A DNA stretch of 57,571 bases from Xanthobacter agilis (GTDB taxonomy: Bacteria; Pseudomonadota; Alphaproteobacteria; Rhizobiales; Xanthobacteraceae). The position numbers were made by a program, and so were the translations under genes. Positions 2,181 through 57,159 of this stretch are shown in pieces; position 1 is the stretch's first letter, and each line of letters starts with the position of its first letter. A model generated the notes under the pieces. That model ran no database searches. It was given only the letters and a program-made list of their open reading frames with translations, and had not been told where the DNA came from. The stretch covers positions 1-57,571 of the forward strand of contig NZ_JABWGX010000030.1 in the NCBI RefSeq assembly GCF_021730435.1. The letters run 5' to 3'.

Positions 2181-2293
2181 CTTGCGTCACCCTCTGCCTG
2201 CCCCGCCCGCTCAGCGGTTCCAGCCTCGACGAATCGAGGCCCGCCGCATGCGGAACGCGGGAATCATATCGGCATCGGCATAGCGCGAAAAGG

Positions 2294-2631: not shown

Positions 2632-2862
2632 ATGTTTCCCCGACCCCAAGGAGAGCCCGCCGCGGAAGCCAGGGGCGTTGCTCGGCGACTTCAGCCCTCA
2701 GACCCCATGGATATCAAACCGATAAGGCTTCACGATGATGACGGTGCAGCCGCGATCTCTTCGCGATGCATCAGCCTAGCGACCATAGAAAAACTAGCCG
2801 CCGCGCAGTGGCTTGGTCAACGCAATTCCCTCAGGTCCTTCGCATCGGCGCCAAAGAATGCA

Positions 2863-5235: not shown

Positions 5236-5766
5236 TCAGGCATCGCCCTCGCCCTTGAGGCGCGACAGCGCGGAGAAGGGCGAAATGGCCGCCGCATCCT
5301 CCGCCGGCGGCTCGAACACGGCGCCGGGCTTGCGCGGATAAGGATCAATGCCGAGCGCCAGGAACTCACTGGCGAGAGCCCCGACATCTATGGCGCCATT
5401 GACGATCTCGTCTGGCGGATCATAGCTCTCGTCGTCTTCCGCCGGCGCCGGCAAGGCGGTGCCTTCGGGCACGAAATGCACGTCGACCGGCTCCCGGACG
5501 GGGGCCTCGAAGGGCTCCAGCGTGACGCCGCAGGTTTGCACCACCGCCGCATCGACGGTGCCCGTCACATGCAAGCCTGCCGCGCCCTCCGGCGCGATGT
5601 GGAGCGTCGCGACGAAGGCGGGCATCGCGAGCACGCCCATGTGCTTCGCCATGGCGGCGCGCACCGCCTCGGTCGGCTCAAGACGCAGGTCGAGCCCGTG
5701 TGGCGGGACCTCCGCAAGGCTCAGGACGTGGCGAAAGGGCAGGTCGATCGGAGCGGATTGGGTCAT
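5236..5766 (-). CDS. DUF177/YceD-family protein
   Basis: Member of the DUF177 family, linked in bacteria to 23S rRNA accumulation and often encoded near plsX. It has 176 residues. The family core is recognisable: a Cys-containing segment VVQTCGVTLEPFEAPV, a VDVHFVPEG strand and the acidic YDPPDEIVNGAIDVGALASE region, which matches the usual E-I-DLG motif. The start ATG at 5766 overlaps the stop of the CBP3-like gene by 4 bp, so the two are translationally coupled. The exact function in Rhizobiales is not settled. Confidence 0.9.
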   Translation of the reverse strand: MTQSAPIDLPFRHVLSLAEVPPHGLDLRLEPTEAVRAAMAKHMGVLAMPAFVATLHIAPEGAAGLHVTGTVDAAVVQTCGVTLEPFEAPVREPVDVHFVPEGTALPAPAEDDESYDPPDEIVNGAIDVGALASEFLALGIDPYPRKPGAVFEPPAEDAAAISPFSALSRLKGEGDA

Positions 5767-6323
5767 GATGTCAGCCTCGCATCACCTTCCGGCCGCGGCA
5801 GACTCAGCTCGCCGCGCGCCAGACTCTCTAACGGAGTCGCCGCCAATTCACGCACAGCGGCGCGGACATAGGCGGCGAGTGCGGAAACCGGCCGCGCGTC
5901 GGCGTCCGTTTCGAAAATATTGCGCGCCAGGGCGGCCGTGAGCAGACCATCATCCTGCGCCGCCAGCGCCGTGTCGTATGCGGCCGCGCGACCGTAGAAG
6001 GCGCCGCCGATCTTTTTCATCTTCTTTGGCACTGAAAGGTCGCCAATCCCCATTTCCCGCAAGGTGCGGTCCATGTCGGAGGCGAAGGTGTCGAACACCC
6101 CCTGGGACAGCGCGCGTTCGGCCTCGACACCATCCTTCAGGCGATGACAGACGAGAATCGTGTGCAGAAGCACCATTTCGAACCGGCCCTCCAGCGTGTC
6201 GGGCACGCCGAAGTCGGTGTAGAACGCCTCTCGCCGCGACTGTGCCACGATCGCGCCATACAGGCGCTCGATGGTCGCGCGGAATGCCGCGCGGGTCTTG
6301 GAGGGGCGAAACAGTTTGAACAT
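5763..6323 (-). CDS. Ubiquinol-cytochrome c chaperone (CBP3) family protein
   Basis: Relative of mitochondrial CBP3/UQCC1, which helps assemble cytochrome b of the bc1 complex. The protein has 186 residues from ATG 6323, chosen because AAGGA lies just upstream and because residues before it are an Arg/Pro-rich, non-conserved extension. Typical family sequence includes YGAIVAQSRREAFYTDFG, LHTILVCHRLK and the VPKKMKKIGGAFYGRAAAYD segment. It is coupled to the DUF177 gene by an ATGA overlap. A role in respiratory chain assembly is taken from the family. Confidence 0.9.
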   Translation of the reverse strand: MFKLFRPSKTRAAFRATIERLYGAIVAQSRREAFYTDFGVPDTLEGRFEMVLLHTILVCHRLKDGVEAERALSQGVFDTFASDMDRTLREMGIGDLSVPKKMKKIGGAFYGRAAAYDTALAAQDDGLLTAALARNIFETDADARPVSALAAYVRAAVRELAATPLESLARGELSLPRPEGDARLTS

Positions 6324-7171: not shown

Positions 7172-7210
7172 CCCGAGCGGGAAAGGGCGAAAGCGCCCTT
7201 CCCGCTCGGG
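7172..7210. terminator. Convergent hairpin between bamE and tpiA
   Basis: A long inverted repeat (arms 7172-7189 and 7194-7210, AAAG loop, one extra base in the left arm) lies between the converging stops of bamE and tpiA. There is no clear T run on either side. It probably acts as a two-way terminator or 3' stabilising stem. Confidence 0.6.
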
Positions 7211-7222
7211 CTTCGGGGCGCC

Positions 7223-7981
7223 TCAGATCGCGGCGCGGGCGATGGCGAGAAAGTCCGCAGCCTTCAGGCTCGCGCCCCCCACCAGGGCGCCATCCACATC
7301 GGGGACAGCCAGAAGAATCGCGGCATTGTCGGGCTTCACCGACCCGCCGTAGAGAATGCGGATGCCCTGCGCCTCGGCCGCGAATCGCTCGGTGAGAACC
7401 GCGCGGATGGCGTGGTGCACTTGCGCCACATCCTCAGGGGTGGGGGTGCGACCGGTGCCGATGGCCCAGATGGGCTCATAGGCGACCACCAGATTCTGAG
7501 CCGTCGCCCCTTCCGGAATCGACTGGCGGATCTGCCGCGCGACCACGGCGGCGGCATCGCCCGCATCGCGCTCGGCGAGGGTCTCGCCGACGCAGACGAC
7601 CGGCAGCAGGCCCGCGCGCCATGCGGCCTTCGTCTTGGCATTCACCACGGCATCGCCCTCGCCATGGTCGCCGCGCCGCTCGGAATGACCGACGATCACC
7701 GCCACCGCCCCCGCGTCCTTCAACATGTCCGGGGAGATGTCGCCGGTATGGGCGCCCGAGGCGTTGAAATGGCAATCCTGGCCACCCAGCATGATCGGGC
7801 TGCCCGCCACATCGGCGGCAAATCCCGCAAGCAGGGTTGCCGGCGGGCACACCAGGAGATCCACCTTGGATTGCAGGGTCGGGTCAAGACCTGCCACGAT
7901 TCCCCGCAGCTCGCTCTTGGCCGCGCGCAGGCCGTTCATCTTCCAATTGCCGGCGATGAGAATGCGGCGGGCTGGGGACAT
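7223..7981 (-). CDS. tpiA: Triosephosphate isomerase
   Basis: Interconverts dihydroxyacetone phosphate and glyceraldehyde 3-phosphate in glycolysis and gluconeogenesis. About 252 residues, a full TIM barrel. Catalytic residues are present: Asn/Lys in AGNWKMNG, His in IVGHSERR and Glu in [11 protein letters not shown]; the phosphate loop [10 protein letters not shown] is intact. The ATG at 7981 was chosen because GGAG lies six bases upstream; ATG 7987 and TTG 7993 are open but poorly spaced. Divergent from ppiD with 179 bp between. Confidence 0.97.
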
Positions 7982-8160
7982 GGGCATCTCCAAAAGGTGT
8001 CGTTGCGATCCTTGTTATGGGGATGTCACCTAGCAGAGCCCGCAAAAGCCCGCAAACGGGCGCAATTGCGTGGTGAACCGCCGTTGCGGGGTCCCCTGCC
8101 GCTCCCTATGATGCGCCGCCTCAGCGCCGGCCCGCGCCGCGCCTAGCGAACGAATGGACG

Positions 8161-10053
8161 ATGGTACTTCAGACTCTCCGCAAGGGTGCTTCCGGCTGGA
8201 TCGCCAAGATCTTCCTTCTCCTGTTGACCGCCAGCTTCGTGGTGTGGGGCATCGCCGACGTGTTTCGCGGCTTTGGCGCGACCACGGTGGCGACCGTGGG
8301 CGACACGGATATCTCCGCGGCCGAATACCGCAACCAGTTCCTGGAGCAGATCCAGCGCATCGGTCGCAGCACCGGCAAGGGCCTCACCACCGAGCAGGCC
8401 CGCGCTTTCGGTCTCGACCGGCAGATCCTCAACCAGATGATCGCCGATGCCACCTTGGATGAGGAGGCGCGGCGCCTGGGTCTTGCGGTGGGGGACGCGC
8501 AGATCGCCGCCGCCATCGCCAGCAATCCCAATTATCGCCGGCCCGGCGCCGACAGCTTCGATGCCGCTTATTTCGACCAGTTGTTGCGCGCCAACGGCCT
8601 GACCGAGCAGCGCTTCGTCGCCAGCGAAAAGAAGCGCGCCCTGCGCGGGCAGGTGATCGACGCCCTCGGCGCCGGGATCGTCGCGCCGAAAACCTTGCTC
8701 GACGCCCTGCATCGCTATGACGGCGAATTGCGCAACGTGTCCTACCTCCTGGTGACAGCGGGGGCGGCCGGCGCCCTCCCCGCCCCCACGGACGCGCAGC
8801 TCACGGCCTATTTCGACGCGCACAAAGTGGCCTTCCGCGCTCCCGAATATCGCAAGATCTCGGTGCTGGCGCTGACGCCCCAGGCGCTTGCCGCCGGCAT
8901 CACGGTCACCGACGCGGACGCGCGCGCCGCCTATGACCGCGACCTGTCCCGCTTCGGCACGCCGGAGCGCCGCGAGGTACAGCAGATCGTCTTTTCCAAG
9001 CCGGAGGAGGCGGCTGAAGCGGCCGCGAAGATCAAGGCCGGCAGCGCGTTCGCCGACATTGCCGCGGCCCGCGGCCTGACGCCGAAGGACACCGACCTGG
9101 GTCTGGTCGCCAAGGCCGGGATCATCGACCCGAAGATCGCCGAGGCCGCCTTCGGCTTGGCGGACGGGGCCACGAGCGAGCCGGTCCAGGGTCGATTCGG
9201 CACCGCTTTGGTGCATGTGGCGAAGATCGAGCCCGGCACCACACGCCCCTTCGACGACGTGAAGGCCGATCTGGTGCAGGAACTGGTGTTGGCCAAGGCC
9301 CGCCGCGAGCTGCTCGACAAGCATGACGCGGTGGAAGACCAGCGGGCTTCCGGCGCCACCCTGGCCGAAACCGCGGAGAAGCTTGGCCTCAAGATCCAGG
9401 TGTTCGACGCCGTTGATCGTTCGGGCCATGACGCCGTGGACAAGACGGTGGATGTACCTGGTGGGCAGGAGGTGATCTCCGGGGCGTTCGCGGCGGCGCC
9501 GGGCGTGGAGACCGACACCGTCCAGCTTCCGCAGAACGGCGGCTTCATCTGGTACGAGACCAACGCTGTCACCCCCTCACGCGATCGCACGTTCGAGGAG
9601 GCCAAGGCGGCCGTCGCCGCCCGCTGGACCGAGGAGGAAACCGCCAAGGCGGTGGATGAAAAGGCCAAGGCCCTGCTCGCCAAGGCAGAAGCCGGCACCC
9701 CCCTGGCCCAGGTGGCGGGCGAGGCGGAGCTTCCCCTCCAGGTCGCCGATGCCCTGCGGCGCGGGCGGGCGGAGGGCAACTTCTCCCCCGAGAGCCTCCA
9801 GGCCGTGTTCGATGCCAAGGACGGCGGCTTCGGCCTTGCTCCCGCCGCCAAGGAACCGGGCCGCATCGTGTTCCAGGTCACCAAGGTGATCGTACCGCCG
9901 CCGACCGACGCCGATGCGCGCGTGGCCGAGGACCTGTCCCGCCAGCTCGAAAACGACTTCCTGGTGCAGTATCTCAGCGCCCTGCAGAAGCAGATCGGCG
10001 TGAAGATCAACCAGCACGTCTACGCCCAGTCGGTGGGCGCACCGACCAAATGA
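8161..10053 (+). CDS. ppiD: Periplasmic peptidyl-prolyl isomerase (PpiD/SurA-type), membrane-anchored
   Basis: Chaperone of the periplasm, 630 residues. A single N-terminal membrane helix (FLLLLTASFVVWGIADVF, residues ~17-35) anchors it, followed by a SurA-N-like chaperone region (YRNQFLEQIQRIGR to about residue 190) and a parvulin-type rotamase domain around residues 270-365 (RREVQQIVFSKPEEA; GRFGTALVHVAKIEPG). A second degenerate parvulin region follows. trpE begins 13 bp downstream, so the two genes are probably one transcript, an arrangement common in Rhizobiales. The parvulin domain may be catalytically weak, as in other PpiD proteins. Confidence 0.93.
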   Translation: MVLQTLRKGASGWIAKIFLLLLTASFVVWGIADVFRGFGATTVATVGDTDISAAEYRNQFLEQIQRIGRSTGKGLTTEQARAFGLDRQILNQMIADATLDEEARRLGLAVGDAQIAAAIASNPNYRRPGADSFDAAYFDQLLRANGLTEQRFVASEKKRALRGQVIDALGAGIVAPKTLLDALHRYDGELRNVSYLLVTAGAAGALPAPTDAQLTAYFDAHKVAFRAPEYRKISVLALTPQALAAGITVTDADARAAYDRDLSRFGTPERREVQQIVFSKPEEAAEAAAKIKAGSAFADIAAARGLTPKDTDLGLVAKAGIIDPKIAEAAFGLADGATSEPVQGRFGTALVHVAKIEPGTTRPFDDVKADLVQELVLAKARRELLDKHDAVEDQRASGATLAETAEKLGLKIQVFDAVDRSGHDAVDKTVDVPGGQEVISGAFAAAPGVETDTVQLPQNGGFIWYETNAVTPSRDRTFEEAKAAVAARWTEEETAKAVDEKAKALLAKAEAGTPLAQVAGEAELPLQVADALRRGRAEGNFSPESLQAVFDAKDGGFGLAPAAKEPGRIVFQVTKVIVPPPTDADARVAEDLSRQLENDFLVQYLSALQKQIGVKINQHVYAQSVGAPTK

Positions 10054-10066
10054 GCCGGAGGGAGAA

Positions 10067-11578
10067 ATGAACGCACCTTCGGACTTCGAGCTGTTCGCGC
10101 GCCGCTATCTCAAGGGCGAGGCGCAGGTGGTCTCCACCACTTTGGTGGCCGATCTCGAAACCCCCGTCTCGGCCTTCCTGAAGCTGGCCGGCGACCTGCC
10201 CAACGCCTTCCTGCTCGAATCGGTGGAAGGCGGGCAGGCGCGCGGGCGCTATTCCATGATCGGCCTCAAGCCCGACCTGCTGTTCCGGGTCGAGGCGGGC
10301 AAGGCCGAGATCAACCGCGCGCCGGGCATCGACGCCGGAGCTTTCTCCCCCTGCTCCGAGCCGCCGCTCGCGGCGATTCGCAGCCTCCTTGCCGAATCCG
10401 CCATCGACCTGCCCGAAGGCGCGCCGCCCATGGCGGCCGGCGTCTTCGGCTACCTGGGCTATGACATGGTGCGGCAGATGGAGCGCCTGCCGGCGGCCAA
10501 GCCCAATGTCATCGGCGTGCCGGATGCCCTGCTGATCCGGCCGACACTCATGGTGGTGTTCGATTCGGTGAAGGACGAGCTGACGGCGGTCACCCCCGTG
10601 CGCCCGAAGCCCGGCGTGACGCCGCAGGCCGCCTATGAGTCGGCGCTCGAGCGTCTTGACGGGGTGGTGGCGGCGCTGGACAGCGCGGTGGTCCATCCGG
10701 ACCCGGAGCCGTTCCACGAGGCTGTGGAAGCGCACTCCAATACCGATCCGGCCGAATATCGCGCCATGGTCGAGAAGGCCAAGGAATATATCGGCGCCGG
10801 CGACATCTTCCAGGTGGTGCTGTCGCAGCGATTCGAAAGCGCCTTCACCCTGCCGCCCTTCGCGCTGTATCGCGCGTTGCGGCGGGTCAATCCCGCGCCG
10901 TTTCTCGTCTATTTCAATTTCTCCGGCTTCTCGGTGGTCTGTTCAAGCCCGGAAATCCTGGTGCGTCTAAGCGGGGGCCAGGTCACCATCCGCCCCATCG
11001 CCGGCACGCGCCGGCGTGGTGCCACGCCGGCGGAGGACGAAGCCCTCGCCGCGGAACTGCTCGCCGACCCCAAGGAGCGGTCCGAGCATCTGATGCTGCT
11101 CGACCTCGGCCGCAACGACGTGGGGCGGGTGGCGAAGGTGGGCACCGTCACCGTCACCGACAGCTTCTTCATCGAGCGCTACAGCCAGGTGATGCACATC
11201 GTTTCCAACGTGGAAGGCGAGATCGATCCGCGCCGCGATGCCCTCGATGCGCTGGCCGCGGGCTTCCCGGCGGGCACCGTGTCGGGCGCTCCGAAGGTAC
11301 GGGCCATGCAGATCATCGACGAGCTGGAGAAGGATGCCCGCGGCATCTATGCCGGCGCCATCGGCTATTTCAGCGCCAATGGCGACATGGACACCTGCAT
11401 CGTCCTGCGCACCGCCGTGGTCAAGGACGGCCGCATGTATGTGCAGGCGGGCGCCGGCATCGTCTACGACTCGGTGCCCGAGAGCGAGCAGCAGGAATGC
11501 GTGAACAAGGCCAAGGCCCTGTTTCGCGCCGGGGAAGAAGCCGTGCGCTTCGCCGCCAACGCTCGCAAGGGGCAGTGA
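10067..11578 (+). CDS. trpE: Anthranilate synthase component I
   Basis: Large subunit of anthranilate synthase, which makes anthranilate from chorismate in tryptophan synthesis. 503 residues with a GGAGGGAG ribosome site. The Trp-feedback element is visible (FLLESVEGGQARGRYSM), as are chorismate-binding motifs: PIAGTRRRGATP, HLMLLDLGRNDVGRV and FPAGTVSGAPKVRAMQII, then AGAGIVYDSVPESE. It is the unfused form, lacking the glutamine amidotransferase domain. No trpG or trpD follows; the next gene is on the other strand. There is no room for a leader peptide between ppiD and trpE, so attenuation immediately upstream is unlikely. Confidence 0.97.
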   Translation: MNAPSDFELFARRYLKGEAQVVSTTLVADLETPVSAFLKLAGDLPNAFLLESVEGGQARGRYSMIGLKPDLLFRVEAGKAEINRAPGIDAGAFSPCSEPPLAAIRSLLAESAIDLPEGAPPMAAGVFGYLGYDMVRQMERLPAAKPNVIGVPDALLIRPTLMVVFDSVKDELTAVTPVRPKPGVTPQAAYESALERLDGVVAALDSAVVHPDPEPFHEAVEAHSNTDPAEYRAMVEKAKEYIGAGDIFQVVLSQRFESAFTLPPFALYRALRRVNPAPFLVYFNFSGFSVVCSSPEILVRLSGGQVTIRPIAGTRRRGATPAEDEALAAELLADPKERSEHLMLLDLGRNDVGRVAKVGTVTVTDSFFIERYSQVMHIVSNVEGEIDPRRDALDALAAGFPAGTVSGAPKVRAMQIIDELEKDARGIYAGAIGYFSANGDMDTCIVLRTAVVKDGRMYVQAGAGIVYDSVPESEQQECVNKAKALFRAGEEAVRFAANARKGQ

Positions 11579-11722
11579 GACCGGCCCGAGCCCCTTCTCC
11601 GCCCGGACAGTGGAAAGGGAGGGGCCGGGCGCCTCAACCTTTGCACGAAGAATTGGAAATTAACTTTAATATCAAAGTGATGCTGGAATTTCCTCGCGCA
11701 TCACTGGAGCGGATGCGTGGAC

Positions 11723-12535
11723 TTAGCCTGCCGGCATATGGGCCGAGAGGTCGGTAATTGTGGGCGTCTCCCCCGTCAGCGGGTTGTCGGGATCCCAGGC
11801 GTAGGTCAGCGTTTCGAAGCGCATGTCGGCGGCGTCGATCATCAAGAGGCGACCCACCAGCCCCTCGCCGAAACCGACGATGGCGCGAATCGCCTCCAGC
11901 GCCGCGATCGACCCGGCGAGGCCCGCGACCGCCCCCAGCACGCCGGCTTCCGCGCAGGCGGGCACCAGGCCGGGCGGCGGCGGCTCCGGAAACAGGCAGC
12001 GATAGGTGGGATTCGGCACGCCATCGGGGCGACGCTCATGGGCCCGGATGGTGGTGATGGTGGCATCGAAGGTGCCGAGCGCCGCCGTCACCAATGGCTT
12101 GCGCGCCAGGACGCAGGCGTCCGAGATCAGATATCGCGTGGCGAAATTGTCGGAGCCGTCCACGACCACATCTACCGTTTCGATGAGACCCAGCGTGTTG
12201 CGGGCATCCAGACGCACCGGAATGGCGTCCACGCTCACATGAGGGTTCAGGGCGGAGATAGCGTCGCGCGCGCTGTCCGTCTTTGCACGGCCGATATCGT
12301 CGGTGCGGTGAATCACCTGCCGCTGGAGATTGGAGAGCGAAACCGTGTCGTCATCCACCACCACCAGGTGGCCGACGCCCGCGGCGGCCAGATATAGCAG
12401 CGCCGGGGCGCCGAGGCCGCCCGCGCCCACCACGAGCACGGTTGCCCCCTTCAATCTCTGCTGACCGGGACCGCCCACGTCGCGCAGAACGATATGGCGG
12501 GCGTAGCGCTCGATTTCTTCAGCAGAGAAGACCAT
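11723..12535 (-). CDS. moeB: MoeB/ThiF/HesA-family adenylyltransferase
   Basis: E1-like enzyme that adenylates the C-terminus of a sulfur-carrier protein such as MoaD or ThiS. 270 residues. The ATP-binding loop VVGAGGLGAPAL and the LSNLQRQVIHRTDDIG segment are typical, and a family Cys is found in VPACAEAGVLGAVAG. The two CxxC pairs that bind zinc in E. coli MoeB are incomplete: CYRC is TYRC here and the C-terminal pair is absent. No rhodanese domain is fused. ccmG lies 24 bp away on the same strand upstream. Whether it serves molybdopterin or thiamine synthesis cannot be told from sequence. Confidence 0.85.
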   Translation of the reverse strand: MVFSAEEIERYARHIVLRDVGGPGQQRLKGATVLVVGAGGLGAPALLYLAAAGVGHLVVVDDDTVSLSNLQRQVIHRTDDIGRAKTDSARDAISALNPHVSVDAIPVRLDARNTLGLIETVDVVVDGSDNFATRYLISDACVLARKPLVTAALGTFDATITTIRAHERRPDGVPNPTYRCLFPEPPPPGLVPACAEAGVLGAVAGLAGSIAALEAIRAIVGFGEGLVGRLLMIDAADMRFETLTYAWDPDNPLTGETPTITDLSAHMPAG

Positions 12536-46497: not shown

Positions 46498-46624
46498 GGC
46501 CCCTGCCCCACGCATGGCCGCCGTGCGCTCCGCTTCAGGGCGGAAACCGCACGGTGGCTTTTTCAAACCGGACTTTCCGGCTAAAGGAAGCCCTCAAGCG
46601 CCCACGTTGGAAAGCCCTCGCCCC

Positions 46625-48187
46625 ATGTCCGCTCCCACGTCCCAAGACACCGTCCTCATCATCGATTTCGGCAGCCAGGTGACCCAGCTCATCGCCCGCC
46701 GCGTGCGCGAGGAAGGCGTCTATTCGGAAGTCGTGCCGTTCCAGAAGGGCGCGGAAGCGGTGGCCCGGCTGAAGCCGAAGGCCATCATCCTCTCCGGCGG
46801 GCCTGCCTCGGTGATCGAGGGCGAGAGCCCGAAGGCTCCCGATGCCGCGTTCACCGCCGGGGTGCCGGTGCTGGGCATCTGCTACGGCGAACAATGCATG
46901 GCCGCCCAGCTCGGCGGCACCGTGGAAGCCGGCCACCATCGCGAGTTCGGCCGCGCCGAGGTGACCATCAAGAAGGTCGTGCCCCTGTTCGATGGGGTAT
47001 GGAAGGATGGCGAGCGCCACACCGTTTGGATGAGCCATGGCGACCGCGTCACCGCGCTGCCGGAAGGCTTCGAGGTGGTGGCCACCTCCGATAACGCCCC
47101 CTTCGCCGCCATCGCCGACGTGGCGCGCGGCTATTATGGCGTGCAGTTCCACCCGGAGGTGGTGCACACGCCAGACGGTGCGCGCCTGCTCTCCAATTTC
47201 GTGCGCAAGGTGGCGGGGCTCGAGGGCACCTGGACCATGGGCGCCTTCCGCGAGCGGGCCATCGCCCGCATCCGCGAGCAGGTCGGCACCGGCCGGGTCA
47301 TCTGCGGCCTCTCCGGCGGCGTCGACTCCTCGGTGGCGGCGGTGCTGATCCACGAGGCGATCGGCGAGCAGCTCACCTGCGTGTTCGTGGACCACGGCCT
47401 GATGCGCCAGGGCGAGGCCGACGAGGTGGTGTCCCTGTTCCGCGGCCACTACAATATTCCGCTTGTGCATGTGGACGCCGCCGACCTGTTCATCGGCGCA
47501 CTCGAAGGCATCGAGGACCCCGAGCAGAAGCGCAAGACCATCGGCAAGCTGTTCATCGACGTGTTCGAGGCCGAGGCCAAGAAGGTGGGTGGTGCGGATT
47601 TCCTGGCTCAGGGCACCCTTTATCCCGATGTCATCGAGAGCGTTTCGTTCGCCGGCGGCCCCTCGGTGACCATCAAGAGCCACCACAATGTGGGCGGCCT
47701 GCCCGCGCGCATGAACATGAAGCTGGTGGAGCCGCTGCGCGACCTGTTCAAGGACGAAGTACGTGCGCTGGGCCGTGAATTGGGCCTGCCGGAAACCTTC
47801 GTCGGCCGCCACCCCTTCCCCGGCCCCGGCCTCGCCATCCGCTGCCCCGGCGGCATCACCCGCGAAAAGCTCGAGATCCTGCGCAAGGCGGATGCCATCT
47901 ATCTGGAAGAGATCCGGTACGCGGGACTTTACGACGTGATCTGGCAGGCTTTCGCGGTGATCCTGCCGGTGCGCACCGTAGGCGTGATGGGCGACGGGCG
48001 CACCTACGACCACGTCTTGGCCCTGCGTGCCGTCACTTCCGTGGACGGCATGACGGCCGACTTCTACCCCTTCGACATGGGCTTCCTTGGCCGCGTGGCA
48101 ACCCGGATCATCAACGAGGTCAAGGGCGTCAACCGCGTCGTCTACGACGTCACCTCCAAGCCGCCAGGCACCATCGAGTGGGAATGA
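46625..48187 (+). CDS. guaA: GMP synthase (glutamine-hydrolysing)
   Basis: Converts XMP to GMP with glutamine and ATP. 520 residues from ATG 46625 (MSAPTSQD). The amidotransferase domain has the nucleophile in [15 protein letters not shown] and His/Glu in [10 protein letters not shown]; the ATP-pyrophosphatase loop is [14 protein letters not shown]; the dimerisation domain ends normally with GTIEWE. The 3' end is intact although an integrase gene follows. guaA 3' ends are a known island insertion site in bacteria, and the reading frame is preserved on integration. Confidence 0.97.
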
Positions 48188-48301: not shown

Positions 48302-48455
48302 CTGACGGTGCGCGCGACGGTATGCGTTTTTCGCCGTCCGCCGAAATTTCACCCTACCGTCAGGCCAAAAACCGAAGCGCCCCGTTAAAAATCAGTCTAA
48401 TATACTGATATGTAACGATTATTCTAAAAGATTGACGGTATCAGATTTGACGGTA
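48302..48455. repeat. TGACGGTA repeats before the integrase
   Basis: Exact copies of TGACGGTA at 48433-48440 and 48448-48455, an inverted exact copy at 48355-48362, and one-mismatch copies at 48302-48309 (TGACGGTG) and 48315-48322 (CGACGGTA). A further exact copy is at 48569-48576, inside the integrase gene, and another (inverted) at 53967-53974. The grouping suggests arm-type integrase sites or operator repeats. Confidence 0.6.
48391..48409 (+). promoter_or_regulatory. Possible integrase promoter dyad
   Basis: ATCAGT-CTAATAT-ACTGAT inverted repeat, with a TAATAT -10-like core, 95 bp before the integrase ATG and between the TGACGGTA repeats. Weak evidence. Confidence 0.3.
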
Positions 48456-48503
48456 AAATTGGGGCTCAAAAAGGCGTTTTCGATCGTCAACGAGGCCGTC
48501 CCC

Positions 48504-49760
48504 ATGCTCACTGACATGGCCATCAAGAGACTGAAACCAAAGGATAAATTGTACAAGGTGGCCGATCGTGACGGTATGTACGTTTCCGTCGCCACAACAG
48601 GTCAAATCACCTTCCGGTACGACTACCGTCTGAACGGCCGCCGGGAGACGCTGACGATCGGCCCCTACGGCCCCGATGGCTTCACGCTCGCCGAAGCGCG
48701 CGAGCGCTGCATCGCGGCCCGCAAGCAGGTGGCGGAGGGGCTTTCTCCGGCCCACGAGAAACAGCGCGACAAGCGGCGCAAGGCCATGGAGCGCAGCTTC
48801 GGCGCGGTGAGCGCCTTATGGATTAAGGAAGCGCGCATGGCGGAGAGCACCCGCTCGATGCGCAAGGCCATCCTCGACCGCGACATTCTTCCCGCATGGA
48901 AGAACCGCCTTCTGACCGAGGTGACGCCGGACGATCTGCGACAGCTCTGCGCCAAGGTGAAAGAGCGCGGCGCGCCGGCGACCGCCATCCACGCGCGCGA
49001 CATCGTCAAACAGATCTTCGCCTTCGCCATCCTGCATGGTGAGAAGGTGCCGAACCCGGCCGACGAGGTGGGGCCAGCCTCGATCGCGACCTTCCAGCCG
49101 AAGGACCGGGCGCTGTCGCCGGCCGAAATCAAGATCATGCTGCAGCAGATCGAGCATGTGCCGACCCTGCCGACCATCCGCCTCGGCTTACGCCTGATCC
49201 TGCTCACCATGGTGCGCAAGAGCGAACTGCAGGATGCCACCTGGGACGAGGTGGATTTCGAGAACGCCGTCTGGACGATCCCGAAGGAGCGCATGAAGCG
49301 ATCGAAGGCGCACAACGTCTATCTCGCGCAACAATCGCTCGACATCCTCATCGCCCTGAAGACCTGTGCCGGCAACTCGCGCTTCCTGTTGCCGTCCCGC
49401 TATGACGCCGACGCCCCCATGTCGCGCGCGACCTTCAATCGCGTGACCACGGCCGTCGTGGCGCGTGCCAAGAAGGAGGGGCTGCCACTGGAGCCGTTCA
49501 CGGTCCACGATCTGCGGCGGACCGGCTCGACCCTCCTGAACGAGATGGGCTTCAACAGCGACTGGATCGAGAAGTGCCTCGCCCATGAGGACGGTCGTTC
49601 ATCGCGCGGCGTCTACAACAAGGCCGAATACGAACCGCAGCGCCGCCACATGCTCCAGGAATGGGCCGACATGATCGACGCCTGGGTGAACGGCCAGAAG
49701 CGGGCACCGACGCTGTTGCCGCAGTCAATGCCGTTCATGGGCGCTGAGGCGGTGTCGTGA
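48504..49760 (+). CDS. P4-type tyrosine integrase
   Basis: Site-specific recombinase of 418 residues that would catalyse integration at guaA. ATG 48504 (MLTDMAIKRLKPKDKLY) is the usual start for the family; the frame is open back to 48432 but across the repeats. The N-terminal arm-binding DUF4102 domain covers residues ~1-85 (YVSVATTGQITFRYDYRLNG), followed by the core-binding SAM-like domain and the catalytic domain: Arg in LLTMVRKSELQDATW, HxxR in TVHDLRRTGSTLL, His in KCLAHEDG and Tyr in RGVYNKAEY. All catalytic residues are present. Confidence 0.93.
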   Translation: MLTDMAIKRLKPKDKLYKVADRDGMYVSVATTGQITFRYDYRLNGRRETLTIGPYGPDGFTLAEARERCIAARKQVAEGLSPAHEKQRDKRRKAMERSFGAVSALWIKEARMAESTRSMRKAILDRDILPAWKNRLLTEVTPDDLRQLCAKVKERGAPATAIHARDIVKQIFAFAILHGEKVPNPADEVGPASIATFQPKDRALSPAEIKIMLQQIEHVPTLPTIRLGLRLILLTMVRKSELQDATWDEVDFENAVWTIPKERMKRSKAHNVYLAQQSLDILIALKTCAGNSRFLLPSRYDADAPMSRATFNRVTTAVVARAKKEGLPLEPFTVHDLRRTGSTLLNEMGFNSDWIEKCLAHEDGRSSRGVYNKAEYEPQRRHMLQEWADMIDAWVNGQKRAPTLLPQSMPFMGAEAVS

Positions 49761-49975
49761 CTCCGTATTGCCGTTGAAGATGTCGACCATTGCCTCCCCC
49801 GTTCGTCGCAGAATTAGTCAAGAGGCTTGGCACCCCTGAACTGCGAACAATAATCGCTAGGGAGTTCTTTCTACGACTGAACTTACCTCACCGTGCGCGA
49901 CAATGGCGTGAAAATTCAGCGTGCGGCTGCTACATTCATACACGCTAGGCGGCGAAGAACGCTTGGGGAGGGGCC

Positions 49976-52090
49976 ATGAAACTGAGCGCAATTGCCATCC
50001 GAAACTTTCGGCGCCTTGAGGACGTCTCGATTGATATCGAAGAAAAGGAAACGATCTTCGTCGGGCCGAACAACAGCGGCAAAACATCGGCTACCGCGAT
50101 CTTCCGATGCTTCCTTGGCGGTCGTGAGTTCAGGATCTACGACTTCTCGGTCGCGCGGATGGCCGACTTCGAGAAGTTCGTGGAATCCGGCAATCCCGCG
50201 GATCTCCCACAGATCAGTTTGGACCTGTGGTTCACGATCGATCCGAACACCATTGCGTTTGGGCGGGTGTTCACCCTCCTGCCGAGCCTGTCCGACTTCA
50301 CACGCGTGGGGTTCCGGCTTTCGTACGGGATTGACGATGCCAAAAAGCTGCGCGAGCAATATTTCGCCGCCTATCCGTTGACCGACGGGACACGATCAAA
50401 GACGCTTTTCCAATACCTCGCAACGGACAACAATCTCGCCCGGCATTCGCTGGTCCGCTATGCCTCGCTAGAGGAAAAGGCGGTCGAGGGCAGCGTGGTC
50501 GAGGTTGTTGCCACCCCGCTCGAGCCTGAGGAGGGCAAGCGCCTCGTCCGGAATCTCGTGCGGGTCGAGTTCGTGGACGCGCAACGAAATATCAATGACG
50601 ATGATAGCAGCCGCAGCAACCGTCTCTCGGCTGCGTTCGCAGCCTACTATAGGAAGAACCTTGAACAGGCCGATCAGGCTGCCGAGGCACACAAGGTCAT
50701 AGATGAGAATAACCGGCAGTTGACCGGGCACTATAAGACGCAGTTTGCCCCTCTGATCGGCCTTATTGCAGGTCTCGGAGTACCATCAGTGAATGATCGC
50801 GAGCTTCGCATCATCTCATCGCTGAGCCCCGAAACCGCGCTGCGCGGCAATACCGAGTTGCTCTATGTCGACCCTGGCCGGAAGCATGAGCTACCGGAGC
50901 TCTATAACGGTCTCGGGTTCAAGAACCTGATCTACATGGCCATTCAGGCTAGGCACTTCCATTCGCAATGGCTTATGACGGCCGAGAGTCGGCCCTTGTG
51001 CCTCCTCATCTTCATCGAGGAACCCGAGGTTCACCTTCACGCGCAGGTGCAACAGACTTTCATCGCGAATATCTGGAGCGTTATCGACCAGTCCGCCAAG
51101 GACGCGAAGCAGCCCGACTTGGTTCCGCAGCTTGTCGTGACAACCCATTCGTCGCACATCCTCGACGCTGTCGACTTTGAGAAAGTCCGCTATTTCCAAC
51201 GATGCCACTTGACCGGCGAGGAGGCGCACGAGGGAATTCGCAACGCCTCTGCTGTTCGAAGCCTTCGCGCCTTCCGGCCGGAAGCGGACGTCATCGACGG
51301 TGCCACGATCTCGCCTGAACAGGCGCTCGCGTTCCTGAAGCGATATCTCCGCCTCACGCATTGTGACCTATTTTTCGCGGACGCCGCTATCCTGGTGGAA
51401 GGCGCCGTCGAAAAGTTGCTGATGCCCTCGATGATAGAAACATCGGCCAAGCGGCTGCGAACCACCTACCTTACCGTCTTGGAAGTCGGCGGGGCCTATG
51501 CGCACCGCTTCGAGGGATTGCTCGCCTATCTGCGCATCCCATACCTCATAATTACCGATCTCGATTCCGTCGTTCCGACCGGATACCCGAGCGCGTGCCG
51601 CGCTGATGTCACCGGCGCCCGCACGTCGAATGCGTCCCTGAAATCGCTGTGCGGCAAAGAAACGGTCGCCGATCTGATCGCGATGTCGCAGGCCGAAAAG
51701 ATCGTCGTAGCCAAGGATCGCTGCGTGGCTTTTCAGATGGACGTTAAGGTTAGTGAGAACGGCGTCAACCTCGCGATGCGCCCACGCACGCTCGAGGAGG
51801 CAATCGCGTATGAGAATTTCGCCCGCATCAGATCCAAGGCGATTAGCATCGGTATCGATATCCCCGCCGCGCTGCCGGACGCGTATCAGGCGCTCTATGA
51901 CCGTATTCGCTCGGAGAACTTCAAGAAGACGGATTTCGCGATGAGCCTGTTGGCGGGCACCGCCGACTGGAATGTGCCGGCCTATATCGCAGAGGGCTTG
52001 GAATGGCTCGAATTGCGCCTGTGCGGGCCGGCACCTGAGCCCAGCAATTCGTCGGCCGTGCCGCCGAGCATTGTCACCGGCGAGGTATGA
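49976..52090 (+). CDS. gajA: GajA-like OLD-family ATPase/TOPRIM nuclease
   Basis: Nuclease subunit of a Gabija-type anti-phage system; in studied systems GajA nicks DNA when nucleotide levels fall. 704 residues. The ABC-type ATPase has Walker A at residues ~30-37 (VGPNNSGKTSATA), Walker B in LLIFIEEPEVHLHAQVQ and the H-loop in VVTTHSSHILDAV. The TOPRIM domain follows: ILVEGAVEKLL with Glu475 and Glu479, LIITDLDSV with Asp528 and Asp530, and a later Lys in KIVVAKDR. The prototype from Bacillus cereus has 578 residues, so extra sequence is present here. A strong GGGGAGGGG ribosome site precedes the ATG. It overlaps the helicase gene by 4 bp. Confidence 0.9.
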   Translation: MKLSAIAIRNFRRLEDVSIDIEEKETIFVGPNNSGKTSATAIFRCFLGGREFRIYDFSVARMADFEKFVESGNPADLPQISLDLWFTIDPNTIAFGRVFTLLPSLSDFTRVGFRLSYGIDDAKKLREQYFAAYPLTDGTRSKTLFQYLATDNNLARHSLVRYASLEEKAVEGSVVEVVATPLEPEEGKRLVRNLVRVEFVDAQRNINDDDSSRSNRLSAAFAAYYRKNLEQADQAAEAHKVIDENNRQLTGHYKTQFAPLIGLIAGLGVPSVNDRELRIISSLSPETALRGNTELLYVDPGRKHELPELYNGLGFKNLIYMAIQARHFHSQWLMTAESRPLCLLIFIEEPEVHLHAQVQQTFIANIWSVIDQSAKDAKQPDLVPQLVVTTHSSHILDAVDFEKVRYFQRCHLTGEEAHEGIRNASAVRSLRAFRPEADVIDGATISPEQALAFLKRYLRLTHCDLFFADAAILVEGAVEKLLMPSMIETSAKRLRTTYLTVLEVGGAYAHRFEGLLAYLRIPYLIITDLDSVVPTGYPSACRADVTGARTSNASLKSLCGKETVADLIAMSQAEKIVVAKDRCVAFQMDVKVSENGVNLAMRPRTLEEAIAYENFARIRSKAISIGIDIPAALPDAYQALYDRIRSENFKKTDFAMSLLAGTADWNVPAYIAEGLEWLELRLCGPAPEPSNSSAVPPSIVTGEV

Positions 52091-53931
52091 TCATGGCGGA
52101 GAAGATCGAGACTGACGCCGACAAGGCGGTCCGTGCATGCCTAGACAGTCATCGAAGCTTCGCCCTGATAGCGGGAGCTGGTTCGGGAAAAACCAGCTCA
52201 CTTGTCGAGGCGCTGGAGCGCATCCGCGAGCGGGAGGGGCGGCCCCTCCGCCAAAACAGTCAGCGTGTCGCGTGCATTACATTCACCAAGCGCGCGGTCG
52301 AGGTGATCAAGACACGCCTCGGTTTTGATGATCTCTATTTCGTATCGACTTTGCACAGCTTCGTGTGGGACCAGATCGGTCGCTTCCAATCCGATATTCG
52401 TGAGGCGCTACGTGAGCACCGGTTGCCGGCACTGATCGCGAAGGAGCGCGAAAAGGATAATGGCGGGGCGAGCCGGACTGCGCAGGAGGCGCGGGCTAGG
52501 GCGGATCGGTTCGAGCAGGAATTGGCGGCACTCGAGTCCGTTGCGCGCTTCGAATATACAGACACCAGGTTCGGAGACTATACAAACGGAAAGCTGGGTC
52601 ATGACGACATCATCGAAGTCGCAGGCTATCTCTTTGAGAAAAATGTTACGTTCAGGCGCATCACAGGGCTGCGCTTCCCGTACATCTTCGTCGACGAGGC
52701 CCAGGACACGTTCGAGGGGATCGTCGCAGGGCTGAATCTTGTCGGCGCCGGTGACGGGCTTCCGGTCGTTGGTTATTTTGGCGATCCATGGCAGCAAATC
52801 TATGATCGTAGCGCCGGGACCTTCGCACCGCCTGCCAATGGCGAAACCATCACCAAGACTGAGAATTTCCGTTGCTCGGAAAGCGTCATCCGGCTGCTCA
52901 ACGCCTTTCGCCAGGACGTGAAGCAATATGCCGCGGGCGAGAACAGGGGCCGGAAGGGCAGCGTCCTGTTCCGCCTCGTGAGGGCGGAGAAGCCCGAAGG
53001 TCCACGCAATACCTACACGGACGCGCAGATTGTGCGTGCCTTGGAGCGGATGGATGCGGCAGTGACCGAATGGGGCTGGAGCAACCGGGATGACGTCATA
53101 AGACTGTTCCTTGCTCGCCAGATGATCGCGCGGCGGATGGGCTTCGCCGATCTGAACCGCCTGTTCAACGGGACGTACGCCTCCTCGCGTGCCGAAGACC
53201 AGTTCGAGGCGGGAGAGCATTCTCTCCTTCTGCCGCTAACGACGACGGTACTTCCGCTGATCGTGGCGCATGAAGCAGGTGACAGCCGCCGGATCATCGA
53301 CGTTCTCAGGCGCGATAGTCCGGCATTCGCGGTGGATGGTGTCAATGCGGCAAACACGCTGAAGACGATGATCGACACCTCCGTCACACTGGTCGACCAA
53401 CTTGCGTCTCTTTGGGGATCGGCAACGATCGGCGACGTGCTCCGATTCTGTGTCGATAAGCAGATTGTCCACGCGTCAGATCGTTTGCGCGGTCATCTTG
53501 AGCGTCCGCCCCGCGCAGAGGAATACGATGAAGCGCAGCACAGCGTTGATAAGGGGGATTGGCTCGCCGATGCGTTCTTCAAAATGGCGACCACCGAACT
53601 TCGTCCCTACTCGGCGTTCATCGCGAACAACACAGCCTACAGCACGCAGCATGGCGTCAAGGGGGAGGAATACTCCAAGGTCATGGTCGTGTATGATGAT
53701 GTCGAGGCGAACTGGAACAACTACAGCTTCGGGAAGATATTGACTCCGGGAACAGCTGGGGAGCCCACGGAGGGGCAACTCTCCCGTGGCCGTAAGCTCG
53801 TCTATGTCTCGTTCTCTCGCGCGCTCGAGGATCTCCGGGTGTTGTTCTTCTCCAGAGACCCTGACGCGGCCCGGCAGGAACTGATCGACAAGAAGTTGCT
53901 AGAGCCAAGCCAGATCGAGGTGGTCGCATAG
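52087..53931 (+). CDS. gajB: GajB-like UvrD-family helicase
   Basis: Superfamily 1A helicase partner of GajA; GajB is thought to sense DNA ends or termini made during phage replication and to activate GajA. 614 residues, longer than the ~494 of the prototype. Motifs in order: Walker A IAGAGSGKTSSLV (residues ~29-37), Ia ITFTKRAVEVI, Walker B FVDEAQDTFEG (Asp203, Glu204), III GYFGDPWQQIYD, IV TENFRCSESVIRLLN, V QHGVKGEEYSKVMV and VI LVYVSFSRALEDL. The ATG overlaps the gajA stop (ATGA), so the two are cotranslated. ATG 52093 is a possible second start. Confidence 0.9.
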   Translation: MIMAEKIETDADKAVRACLDSHRSFALIAGAGSGKTSSLVEALERIREREGRPLRQNSQRVACITFTKRAVEVIKTRLGFDDLYFVSTLHSFVWDQIGRFQSDIREALREHRLPALIAKEREKDNGGASRTAQEARARADRFEQELAALESVARFEYTDTRFGDYTNGKLGHDDIIEVAGYLFEKNVTFRRITGLRFPYIFVDEAQDTFEGIVAGLNLVGAGDGLPVVGYFGDPWQQIYDRSAGTFAPPANGETITKTENFRCSESVIRLLNAFRQDVKQYAAGENRGRKGSVLFRLVRAEKPEGPRNTYTDAQIVRALERMDAAVTEWGWSNRDDVIRLFLARQMIARRMGFADLNRLFNGTYASSRAEDQFEAGEHSLLLPLTTTVLPLIVAHEAGDSRRIIDVLRRDSPAFAVDGVNAANTLKTMIDTSVTLVDQLASLWGSATIGDVLRFCVDKQIVHASDRLRGHLERPPRAEEYDEAQHSVDKGDWLADAFFKMATTELRPYSAFIANNTAYSTQHGVKGEEYSKVMVVYDDVEANWNNYSFGKILTPGTAGEPTEGQLSRGRKLVYVSFSRALEDLRVLFFSRDPDAARQELIDKKLLEPSQIEVVA

Positions 53932-54197
53932 GCAACGCTCAATCGCGAGCCTACATTTCGGGAAAGTACCGTCACGTCCCTTGACCCAATCTGCCACGAC
54001 TGCGCTCCCGATCGGATCGTTAGCCGCTCATTCCTGCGGTTGAAACGCGCGGATGACCACCGACCTAAGCTCTTGTTGGCGAGACAATCGTCTCGCTTGC
54101 CAAAGGGCGCAAAAAACGGATGCGCGTCCTTCTTCAAGCTGGCATATGAATGCTGCCGAATCGAGTGAGCTTTTACTTCTATATTCAAGTAGTTCCG
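53932..54197. other. Spacer downstream of the Gabija-like pair
   Basis: About 266 bp with no gene I can support. It holds an inverted copy of TGACGGTA (53967-53974) and a hairpin at 54076-54103 (7-bp GCGAGAC/GTCTCGC stem with a short extension and AATC loop), which could end the gajAB transcript. Short open frames here on both strands have no recognisable features. Confidence 0.5.
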
Positions 54198-54620
54198 TTA
54201 CCTCCGGCGTGAAGTGGGCGCTGTCGCTGTCACCACTTCTGATTGCTGAAGCGCCCCCTTGACCGGGCGCGTGCGCCGCTGATGAACATCCGGTGTAGGT
54301 GCTTTGCGAAAGGTGTCCGCTTCCGATGCGTGGCGTCGTTCGTCGAGCCACGCTTCAACCTCGGCCAAATCCCACACCACGCAACGCGAAGTCAGAAAGA
54401 AGCGCTTTGGGAACTCGCCGCGCTGTTCCATCTCGTAGATCGTCGTGTCAGCGAGTGGCACGATTTTGCGAAGCTCTGGGCGACGGATAACGCGCTTGAA
54501 CAGGTCGGCAGGTGGCCGAAACCGTTTGGAGGTGGTTTCGGCCGGTCCTTTGACGGAAGGCTGCGTGGTCTCGACGTCCAGAGCTTTATCTTCGTGAGGA
54601 ATGGTTTGTTCGCGTCGCAT
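54198..54620 (-). CDS. AlpA-like DNA-binding protein
   Basis: Small MerR-like helix-turn-helix protein of 140 residues from ATG 54620, chosen because GAAGG lies eight bases upstream; the open frame upstream is not conserved. The core, VIRRPELRKIVPLADTTIYE then QRGEFPKRFFLTSRCVVWDL and EVEAWLDERR, is the pattern of AlpA, an activator of excision in prophage CP4-57. Its N- and C-terminal tails (Thr/Pro and Arg rich) are extra. It could act as excisionase or excision regulator for the island. The gene runs towards gajB. Confidence 0.85.
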   Translation of the reverse strand: MRREQTIPHEDKALDVETTQPSVKGPAETTSKRFRPPADLFKRVIRRPELRKIVPLADTTIYEMEQRGEFPKRFFLTSRCVVWDLAEVEAWLDERRHASEADTFRKAPTPDVHQRRTRPVKGALQQSEVVTATAPTSRRR

Positions 54621-54751
54621 GTCGATCGCCTTCGATCGCTGTGGAATGACTGCGACCAAGGTGATGTATCTTGCTCGTGTATTGAAGGCGTCTGGCGTCG
54701 GCGGGCGGGAAACGGCGGCGATGGCGAACATTTCGGAGGGGTTGCTCCGCC

Positions 54752-55927
54752 CTATCGTGCGATCGCAGCATAAAGTGCACGGCTGATGTCGGCGGAGAAG
54801 CGGCCGCCATTCGACATGCCTTCGAGCGCGGTGTTGGTGAAGGCGACCAGCGTCAGATCCTTGCTGGGATCGACGAACCAGCTATGACCATAGGCGCCAC
54901 CCCACCGCCAAGTGCCTGGGGACTCGGTCACACTGGCGGCTTCCGCATCGCGCAGGATCGAGAAGCCGAGACCATAGCCCCAGCCGGGTGAGCCTTCGAT
55001 ATCGAGCCCGGCAATCTGATCGCGTGCCATGTCCGCGACCTGTTCGGGCGCCATCAACGGCCCGCCGCTCGATCGCAGCGCTTCGAGCAGGGCCATCGTG
55101 TCGAGGGCCGAGCCGATCATGCCGGCGCCGCCGGACGGAAAGGCTTGCGCGTCGAAGGCGCGTGACGGGTCCATGCTGAGGCCGGGGAGACCGGGAAGAA
55201 ACGGTACCTGGTCCGGCTCGCGCATCCGCCGCGGACGCGGGATGTCGTCGGCATAGGCGGCTGCGAGCCGGGTCGTGTCCGGAATCGAGAAGCCGGTGTC
55301 GTTCAGCCCGAGGGGCTCGGTCACCAGCATTTGCACCGCCTGCGGCAGCGCCAACCCCGTCGCGGCCTCGATCAAGGCGCCAGCGACATCGAGGGCGAGC
55401 GAATAGCAAAACCGCGTGCCTGGCCGAAACAGCAACGGCACCCCGGCGAGGCGGGAGAGGTTCTCGGCCAGCGTGATGCCGGTTCGGTCCATGCCATCTG
55501 AGACGCCGGCTCGATGCAGCGGCCCATCATCCGCCTCCAGAAAGCCGTAGCCAAGGCCGGACGTGTGGGTGAGGAGGTGGCGAAGCGAGATCGCGGCGGG
55601 CTCGCCCTCGAAACGCGGTTGGAAGTGCGGAAGCCATTCGGCGATCGGTCGATCGAGATCGAGTTTACCTTGCTCGACCAGGGCCATGGCCGCCGCCGCG
55701 ACGAAGAGCTTGGAGACCGAGGCGAGGCGGAACTGCGCATCTTCGCGCATCGGGAAACCGGTCTCGCGATCTGCCAGGCCGGCGGCCCGGGTGTAGATCG
55801 GCTGGCCGTTCTGGCGCACCAGGACGACGGCGCCGACGATCCGCTCGGCCGCAATCGCCCCATCGATGACGGCGTCGAATCTCGTGGAGAGCGTGGTGGA
55901 AGAAGTCTGAAGAGGGCGTTCGAGCAC
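54752..55927 (-). CDS. Serine hydrolase, beta-lactamase class C-like
   Basis: Penicillin-binding-protein-like esterase/amidase of 391 residues from GTG 55927, chosen because GGAG precedes it; TTG 55948 overlapping the MFS gene is also open. The SxxK nucleophile motif is LASVSKLFVAAAAM, the second-motif Tyr is in RFCYSLALDVAGAL and the third segment is GGAYGHSWFVDPSKDL. No signal peptide is evident, so it is unlikely to be a classical periplasmic beta-lactamase; it is closer to EstB-type esterases. Directly downstream of the MFS gene, probably one operon. Confidence 0.88.
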   Translation of the reverse strand: MLERPLQTSSTTLSTRFDAVIDGAIAAERIVGAVVLVRQNGQPIYTRAAGLADRETGFPMREDAQFRLASVSKLFVAAAAMALVEQGKLDLDRPIAEWLPHFQPRFEGEPAAISLRHLLTHTSGLGYGFLEADDGPLHRAGVSDGMDRTGITLAENLSRLAGVPLLFRPGTRFCYSLALDVAGALIEAATGLALPQAVQMLVTEPLGLNDTGFSIPDTTRLAAAYADDIPRPRRMREPDQVPFLPGLPGLSMDPSRAFDAQAFPSGGAGMIGSALDTMALLEALRSSGGPLMAPEQVADMARDQIAGLDIEGSPGWGYGLGFSILRDAEAASVTESPGTWRWGGAYGHSWFVDPSKDLTLVAFTNTALEGMSNGGRFSADISRALYAAIAR

Positions 55928-55944
55928 GGGAGCTCCGTTTCGGG

Positions 55945-57159
55945 TCAAGGGGCGAAGGAGATGGGAAATCCGTGCCGGTAGGCGCGGTGTGCGGCGATAA
56001 AGGCCGCGGCCAAGAGCAAGAGCGCGACGGGTGCAAAGGCACCGGCTCCAAAATGATCGAGCAACACCCCGCCGATGATGCCGCCGCCGGCGATGGCCGC
56101 GTTCCAGGCGGTGACGAGCATCGATTGGGCGAGGTCGTGCATGTCTCCGGCCGCCTTGGCGAGGGCAGTCTGAAACAGGGTGGCGATGCCGCCAAAGGCG
56201 AGTCCCCAGAGCCCTGCGGCGCTCAAGACGATGGTCGGTGCATGACCGGCGATACCGAGCGCGAGCGCCGCGAGGCCGAACGACGCGATGCTGATCAGCG
56301 TCAGGCTCCTAAGGTGACGGTCGATCAGGACGCCGACGATCCAGATCCCGGCCAGCGCGGCGATTCCGAAGACGAGCAGAGCAAGATCGGTCCTGGTGGC
56401 TCCGCCAATACTGCCGAGCAAAGGGGCGATGTAGGTGTAGAGAATGTTGTGCGCGAGCACGAAAGTCAGAGTGACGAACAGAACCGGCCGGATTCCGGGC
56501 AAGGCGAATACGTGCGTGAGCGGAAGCCGCTCGTCCTCGGTCTGTCCCGGGAAGTCGGGGACTTTCATCGTCACCCAGGCAATCAGGATCAGGGTCAGGC
56601 CGCTCATGACCCCGAACGAAGCCCGCCATCCGATCGCGGCGCCCAGGTATGTTCCTGCCGGAACGCCGAGCGACAGCGCCAGCGGCGTGCCGATCATCGC
56701 GACGGCGATGGCGCGTCCCTTCGATCCTTCCGGCACCATCCGCGCGGCATAGCCGGCGATCAGTGCCCAGAGCAGTCCGGCGGAAACACCAGCGAGGAAC
56801 CGGGCGACGAGCGTCAGTCCATAGCTATCCGATAGCGCCGTCGCCGTGTTCGCCACCGCAAATCCGGAGATGGCGAGGAGCAGGAGCGGCCGTCGCCGCA
56901 TGCCTTGCGTCACGGTCGTCAGGGGAATGGCTGCGGCGAGCGAACCGATGGCGTAGAGCGTGACGAGCTGCCCGGCGAGCGCCTCGGAAACGCTGAGATT
57001 CGCACTGATCTGCGGCAGCAGACCGGCCGGAAGCGCCTCGGTCAGGATGGTGATGAACCCGGCCATCGCGAGCGCCAAGAGGTTCGACCACGGGAATGAA
57101 GCCGAGGTCGGTCGGACGCGGCCGGCCACGTCGTGGGAGCATGTCTTTGTCATGTCCAT
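55945..57159 (-). CDS. MFS efflux transporter (DHA1, AraJ/SotB-like)
   Basis: Inner-membrane exporter of 404 residues with twelve predicted helices. The family pattern includes FITILTEALPAGLLPQISAN at helix 1, VTQGMRRRPLLLLAISGF after helix 2, and the motif AGVSAGLLWALIAGYAARMV. Substrates of this group are sugars or drugs. It is divergent from the LysR gene across 60-87 bp that contain two dyads and precedes the beta-lactamase-like gene in the same direction. Confidence 0.9.
   Translation of the reverse strand: MDMTKTCSHDVAGRVRPTSASFPWSNLLALAMAGFITILTEALPAGLLPQISANLSVSEALAGQLVTLYAIGSLAAAIPLTTVTQGMRRRPLLLLAISGFAVANTATALSDSYGLTLVARFLAGVSAGLLWALIAGYAARMVPEGSKGRAIAVAMIGTPLALSLGVPAGTYLGAAIGWRASFGVMSGLTLILIAWVTMKVPDFPGQTEDERLPLTHVFALPGIRPVLFVTLTFVLAHNILYTYIAPLLGSIGGATRTDLALLVFGIAALAGIWIVGVLIDRHLRSLTLISIASFGLAALALGIAGHAPTIVLSAAGLWGLAFGGIATLFQTALAKAAGDMHDLAQSMLVTAWNAAIAGGGIIGGVLLDHFGAGAFAPVALLLLAAAFIAAHRAYRHGFPISFAP

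Follow-up and report, generated by a model that had tools for sequence, protein, structure and literature searches.

The window analysed here is contig NZ_JABWGX010000030.1 of Xanthobacter agilis (assembly GCF_021730435.1), 57,571 nucleotides (nt) of forward strand, and we are highly confident that it carries an intact Gabija anti-phage pair on an integrase/AlpA island at the 3' end of guaA. The first gene, gajA (49976..52090, + strand), encodes a protein of 704 amino acids (aa) in which an ATP-binding cassette (ABC) ATPase (Walker A G30-T37, EEPE at 348-351) is followed by a TOPRIM nuclease (E475, G505, D528, D530; candidate K650/K651). The second gene, gajB (52087..53931, + strand), encodes a UvrD-like superfamily 1 (SF1) helicase with Walker A GAGSGKT and a DEAQD box; it is 614 aa long, or 612 aa if read from 52093. 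By open reading frame (ORF) analysis the two frames are uninterrupted from end to end, co-directional and adjacent, and they share a 4-nt ATGA overlap. Because both frames are intact and all checked motifs are kept, the Gabija system is, judging from its sequence, complete and probably working.

In a PADLOC profile search the first protein matched 103 families at an E-value of 0.01, and GajA models made up 24 of the best 25 of the 103. The top match, model PDLC00093, scores 687 bits (9e-207) over residues 1-685, which is nearly the whole protein and profile; the best match outside Gabija is AriA, at 163 bits (2.9e-48) over residues 1-396. The second protein matched 44 families at the same E-value, with 24 GajB models in the best 25 of the 44. 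Its GajB match reaches 605 bits (5.6e-182) over residues 4-612, again nearly the whole protein and profile, and its best non-Gabija match is RTasHel at 62 bits (8.9e-18). Pfam assigns AAA_15 (1.9e-44, residues 1-395) and OLD-like_TOPRIM (3.5e-17, residues 466-530) to GajA and UvrD-helicase (1.2e-13) to GajB; Pfam and PADLOC agree that the N-terminal ABC ATPase and the C-terminal OLD-like TOPRIM are joined in one GajA protein. When the proteins were searched singly, the closest PDB sequences were the GajA chain of Bacillus cereus for GajA and the GajB chain for GajB.

The active site was compared with that of B. cereus GajA, where E379, G409, D432 and D434 form the TOPRIM site (PMC10781630). 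A phmmer alignment contains a gap-free block (window residues 426-531 to B. cereus residues 330-435) that pairs E475 with E379, G505 with G409, D528 with D432 and D530 with D434. Relatives were sought with short peptide patterns in a genome collection that represents each species once, a procedure that detects close relatives only; 26 loci were found, 58-79% identical in the best segment. In the GajA alignment of 26 rows (the window and 25 relatives, without L034, whose gajA is truncated by the end of its contig) the four TOPRIM residues are invariant (26/26), and the same holds for Walker A positions 30, 31 and 35-37 and for E348-P350; all 19 of the 19 positions checked are invariant. A gajB frame follows gajA directly in 26 of the 26 relatives and is full length in 23. 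The other three do not enter the GajB alignment, which has 24 rows: L013 has a 100-N gap inside gajB with no gajB match past it, L024 reaches the contig end, and L034 can be aligned only from window residue 62. In 612-aa numbering, 24/24 rows retain R260, K523, R576, the DEAQD box and, apart from one S/A exchange, Walker A; three of the 22 checked positions vary (26 I/V, 31 S/A and 573 S/C). These results bear out a sequence-only reading of the window, which had described an ATPase-TOPRIM protein with its catalytic motifs followed by an SF1 helicase with its motifs and had called the OLD nuclease plus UvrD helicase Gabija: Pfam domains and intact frames agree at the coordinates above, both proteins match Gabija profiles nearly full length and far above all others, and every checked motif is present and conserved. 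Neither of the two outcomes that it named as refuting was seen: no other OLD-helicase family scores better, and the TOPRIM acidic residues, the counterparts of E379, D432 and D434, are kept on alignment.

The same reading took the ATGA as coupling the two genes. The overlap is present as annotated, but a second in-frame ATG of gajB lies at 52093, residue 3 of the 614-aa version. An ATGA overlap of the gajB ATG with the gajA stop occurs in 7 of the 26 relatives (L012, L013, L014, L017, L018, L020 and L033), and by blastp offsets the start codon of these gajB genes corresponds to window residue 3. Translation in the window may therefore begin at 52093, in which case GajB has 612 aa and the two genes are separated by 2 nt in place of the overlap.

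The relatives belong to Alpha-, Beta- and Gammaproteobacteria, Acidobacteriota, Myxococcota, Verrucomicrobiota and Planctomycetota, with one metagenome-assembled genome (MAG) labelled Actinobacteria; several are MAGs, and the phylum names come from record titles and recall. The nearest is from Granulicella (79%). Among 13 same-genus genomes no close homologue was found, the longest (full-length) matches being 35-37% identical, and the guanine-cytosine content of gajA and gajB is 0.58-0.59 against 0.67 for guaA. This combination of a Granulicella nearest relative, no close copy in the genus and lower GC points to horizontal gain of gajAB. Phage and plasmid records gave distant matches only, in 4 and 323 records, respectively, all below 60% identity, with a best plasmid match of 53%. 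Separately, one GajA homologue of the genus, in genome G003 (L069 2177-4252), is broken by a TGA.

The order of genes around the pair is guaA, a core at the guaA 3' end, integrase, gajAB and AlpA. The guaA ORF (46514..48187, + strand), for GMP synthase, is the integration target; it is 84-93% identical to genus guaA, and its true start may lie further inside. Its 3' end holds a putative left attachment site (attL) core (48171..48187, + strand) that contains the published GIsul2 site GAGTGGGA (PMC9376610). The integrase that the sequence-only reading had noticed behind guaA (48432..49760, + strand) is a tyrosine integrase by Pfam (Phage_integrase at 1.6e-23, with Arm-DNA-bind_3 and Phage_int_M). 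On the far side of the pair stands an AlpA-like regulator (54198..54731, - strand; Phage_AlpA, 4.2e-11), which is 72% and 84% identical to the AlpA proteins of two islands in the same-genus genome G004.

These two G004 stretches, L063 and L064, match the flanks of the window at 79-91% on both sides of unrelated cargo, and their blastn borders (49752/54247 for L063, 49743/54259 for L064) delimit a cargo slot at 49753..54246 that takes in gajA and gajB, the last integrase bases and the AlpA C-terminus and is bordered by AlpA on its right. Within the slot the window DNA is unmatched in the G004 islands except for 60 bp inside gajA. In L063, guaA to integrase is 87% and AlpA 79% identical, and between them lies another Gabija pair (1785-5983; 773 and 626 aa; PADLOC GajA 917 bits and GajB 801 bits). 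In L064, core to integrase is 90% and AlpA to the transporter gene described below 91% identical; an acetyltransferase gene stands between them, and the integrase frame looks broken. Between the guaA cores of G004 there are also, at L064 8545-11990, genes for AbiEi/AbiEii and for the C-terminal portion of a type III restriction enzyme. A third arrangement is seen in G011, whose integrase adjoins guaA and is 94.5% identical to that of the window; the genes behind it (L070 41-5496, and L081) encode a protein that matches BilD at 525 bits, a UvrD-PD-(D/E)XK protein and, at a greater distance, a type I restriction subunit. AlpA was not seen in the L070 stretch, to which that comparison was limited.

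A guaA match was obtained in 13 genus genomes. By the integrase profile, nine of them have a full-length integrase beside guaA and one (G005) has a fragment; the guaA stretches retrieved from G003, G008 and G012 show none. Cargo behind these integrases was sampled as selected genes chosen by position and size (10, 10 and 8 proteins, in partly overlapping sets). Proteins of L072, L075, L077 and L074 and a 1234-aa protein of L078 had no PADLOC match, and RecD-like PADLOC matches in L073, L078 and L080 were rejected as defence genes, as Pfam identifies MobA/MobL relaxases in L073 and L078 (L080 was outside the Pfam scan).

We next consider the attachment core itself. With up to 2 mismatches, at least one copy of the guaA core is present in 14/14 genus genomes, and in eight of them (G001, G002, G003, G004, G009, G010, G011 and G013) two or three same-strand copies lie on one contig, with about 10-71 kb between neighbours; a reversed-core control gave none in any genus genome. 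At the same stringency a guaA-type core occurs in 2 of the 26 relative loci, each with 1 mismatch, and the reversed core gave 0 matches over the same loci. One is L026 of P. carotovorum (7659-12146), in which gajAB alone is flanked by two direct core copies at a distance of 4,487 bp, with 53 identical bases in common; no integrase was found in this minimal Gabija cassette by the integrase profile. The other is L029 of M. psychrotolerans (7188-7784), in which the core and a 120-aa integrase fragment lie ahead of gajAB and the ORFs before them look phage-like. At 3 mismatches the core gives nine matches in total over the 26 loci and the reversed core one; single 3-mismatch core matches in L017, L020, L022, L033, L034 and L037 were not counted as sites.

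We tentatively propose, as a possibility and somewhat short of an even chance, that whole operons are swapped with clean borders in a plug-in slot of the guaA integrase/AlpA island, and that a guaA integrase resident in the cell could mobilise, in trans, the integrase-less P. carotovorum cassette between guaA repeats. The slot contents under such a proposal would be two distant Gabija pairs, one gene without a defence role and, less surely, the Bil genes of G011.

To the right of AlpA in the window are a gene for a beta-lactamase-family (PF00144) serine hydrolase-like protein (54752..55948, - strand) and one for a major facilitator superfamily (MFS) transporter (55945..57159, - strand); the G004 counterparts of both lie between two guaA cores. 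A second copy of these two genes, with 93% DNA identity, is found on another contig of the same X. agilis genome (C65; L067 5651-8570), where the adjoining ORFs look transposase-like. A further integrase of the same family is present in this genome on contig C20 (L085 3662-5017), a contig other than that of guaA.

Several observations weigh against an intact Gabija pair on a guaA island. The studied B. cereus pair is distant, with PDB E-values of just 6.5e-10 (GajA) and 1.2e-6 (GajB), and when the GajB family profile is searched against PDB, Rep comes slightly above GajB (5e-7 vs 9.9e-7). The structure model of GajA is poor (mean predicted local distance difference test, pLDDT, 66.6); its top Foldseek match is the class 1 protein TsOLD, narrowly before GajA, and its template modelling (TM) scores to TsOLD and GajA chains are below 0.3, so that this fold evidence was set aside. 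In a Foldseek search with the GajB model, UvrD and PcrA rank far ahead of GajB, whose first entry is at rank 33, and the gajB of relative L034 aligns without the Walker A part. The B. cereus enzyme also needs D511 and K541 to cleave DNA (PMC8136825); their counterparts in the window protein are not fixed, as no sequence alignment extends to that region. E607/E608 and K650/K651, invariant in the GajA rows, are candidates, and the K651 column is K in 8/9 rows of a divergent GajA alignment. A second (right-hand) attachment core was not found in the searched window, which ends with the contig at 57571, or in the X. agilis genome, which shows one copy. The claim of the sequence-only reading that the pair is mobile cargo in a guaA island is supported by the integrase, the exchange of cargo in G004 and the core repeats in relatives, though the search of its own genome found no right-hand repeat.

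Could the first protein belong to another OLD-ATPase system (PARIS with AriA and AriB, a P2-type single-gene OLD, or a retron- or Septu-type ATPase) that has a helicase neighbour by chance? The AriA match over the N-terminal region, the TsOLD match of the poor model and weak GajA matches to PtuA and retron Eco8 models lean that way, but AriA trails the GajA model by the wide gap in bits given above, PtuA (50 bits, cut-off 500) and Eco8 (44 bits, cut-off 250) fall far short, and the gajB-like helicase frame behind gajA recurs in all 26 relatives. In PARIS, the partner AriB stands beside AriA; the neighbours of the window GajA are the GajB helicase and the integrase, and no AriB is among them. 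On scores and partner gene we rejected the PARIS, P2-type OLD, retron and Septu ATPases, and such an origin has next to no chance of being right. A silent or impaired pair, carried by the island as a passenger without defence, is improbable but less so. The sole promoter-like site ahead of gajA (49827-49854) is at chance level (2 in the region against a shuffle mean of 1.6), and a terminator scan of the region gave counts close to those of shuffled sequences. Against an impaired pair stand the full-length frames, the conservation of every checked motif and a purine-rich GGGGAGG stretch upstream of the gajA ATG.

For the intact Gabija pair, we infer assembly, nuclease activity, a DNA-end trigger and defence by analogy with other Gabija systems. 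GajA alone tetramerises, GajB docks on it, and the assembly is required for defence in the published case (PMC10781630), so the window pair would give a GajA4-GajB4 complex, in which a GajA tetramer serves as a TOPRIM nuclease gated by its ATPase and carries the GajB helicases. Gabija of P. aeruginosa PA14 is described in a preprint as non-abortive, blocking circularisation of injected DNA and licensed by the absence of RecBCD from DNA ends (PMC12407980). By the same route the X. agilis complex would target linear phage DNA that enters the cell with its ends unoccupied by the host end-processing nuclease, and phage DNA would be cut or blocked before circularisation and replication. AddAB is the likely host equivalent of RecBCD, since the X. 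agilis genome has AddA above the cut-off (1167 bits); RecB is found only below the cut-off. The gajAB genes would travel as cargo of an integrase/AlpA island whose insertion point is the guaA 3' end. We are less sure of the DNA-end trigger than of the intact pair on its island. Nucleotide sensing, in which the nuclease is released when nucleoside and deoxynucleoside triphosphate pools fall, is an older proposal from in vitro work on the B. cereus protein GajA (PMC8136825) and might operate instead of sensing of RecBCD/AddAB-free ends; as the PA14 system is non-abortive and stops circularisation before replication, we consider this unlikely here, though a more serious contender than a silent pair.

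The pair resembles Gabija of B. cereus VD045 in having an ATPase-TOPRIM nuclease and an SF1 helicase with the TOPRIM E/G/DxD residues, Walker A and a DExQD box; it differs in length (GajA 578 aa and GajB 494 aa in B. cereus), the sequences are distant, and complex formation, cleavage and defence are predicted for the window pair. It adds a distant and wide-ranging subfamily to Gabija, which has been studied in B. cereus and P. aeruginosa; its host carries AddA rather than RecB and could serve to test whether self and non-self are told apart by end protection. The L063 pair of G004 shares the best PADLOC GajA model (PDLC00093) and the guaA-integrase/AlpA slot with the window pair; at 34% GajA identity it is, on protein comparison, not a vertical copy of it, and together they illustrate clearly the exchange of defence operons at a single guaA-island position. 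P. fluorescens SBW25 acquired an element, I23, in which a tyrosine integrase is directly followed by Gabija, alpA stands at the far end and direct repeats flank the whole (PMC12595487); it is inserted at the transfer-messenger RNA (tmRNA) gene instead of guaA, and the likeness is one of gene layout, not of I23 protein comparison. The GIsul2 guaA island (PMC9376610) is reported with a guaA 3'-end site containing GAGTGGGA, an integrase, alpA and more than two attachment sites. Insertion at the guaA 3' end at this site, int and alpA are all present in the window; GIsul2 differs in its sul2-unit cargo, and its likeness is by site and genes, not by integrase protein comparison. A guaA-flanked defence island has been reported in S. 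maltophilia (PMC11680222), and guaA is a site of integrative and mobilizable elements in S. suis (PMC12479173). Gabija, guaA islands with the core and alpA, and an integrase-Gabija-alpA element at tmRNA are thus already published. We concluded that what is new here is the setting of the pair between a guaA integrase and AlpA, and that it is otherwise an ordinary member of the Gabija family.

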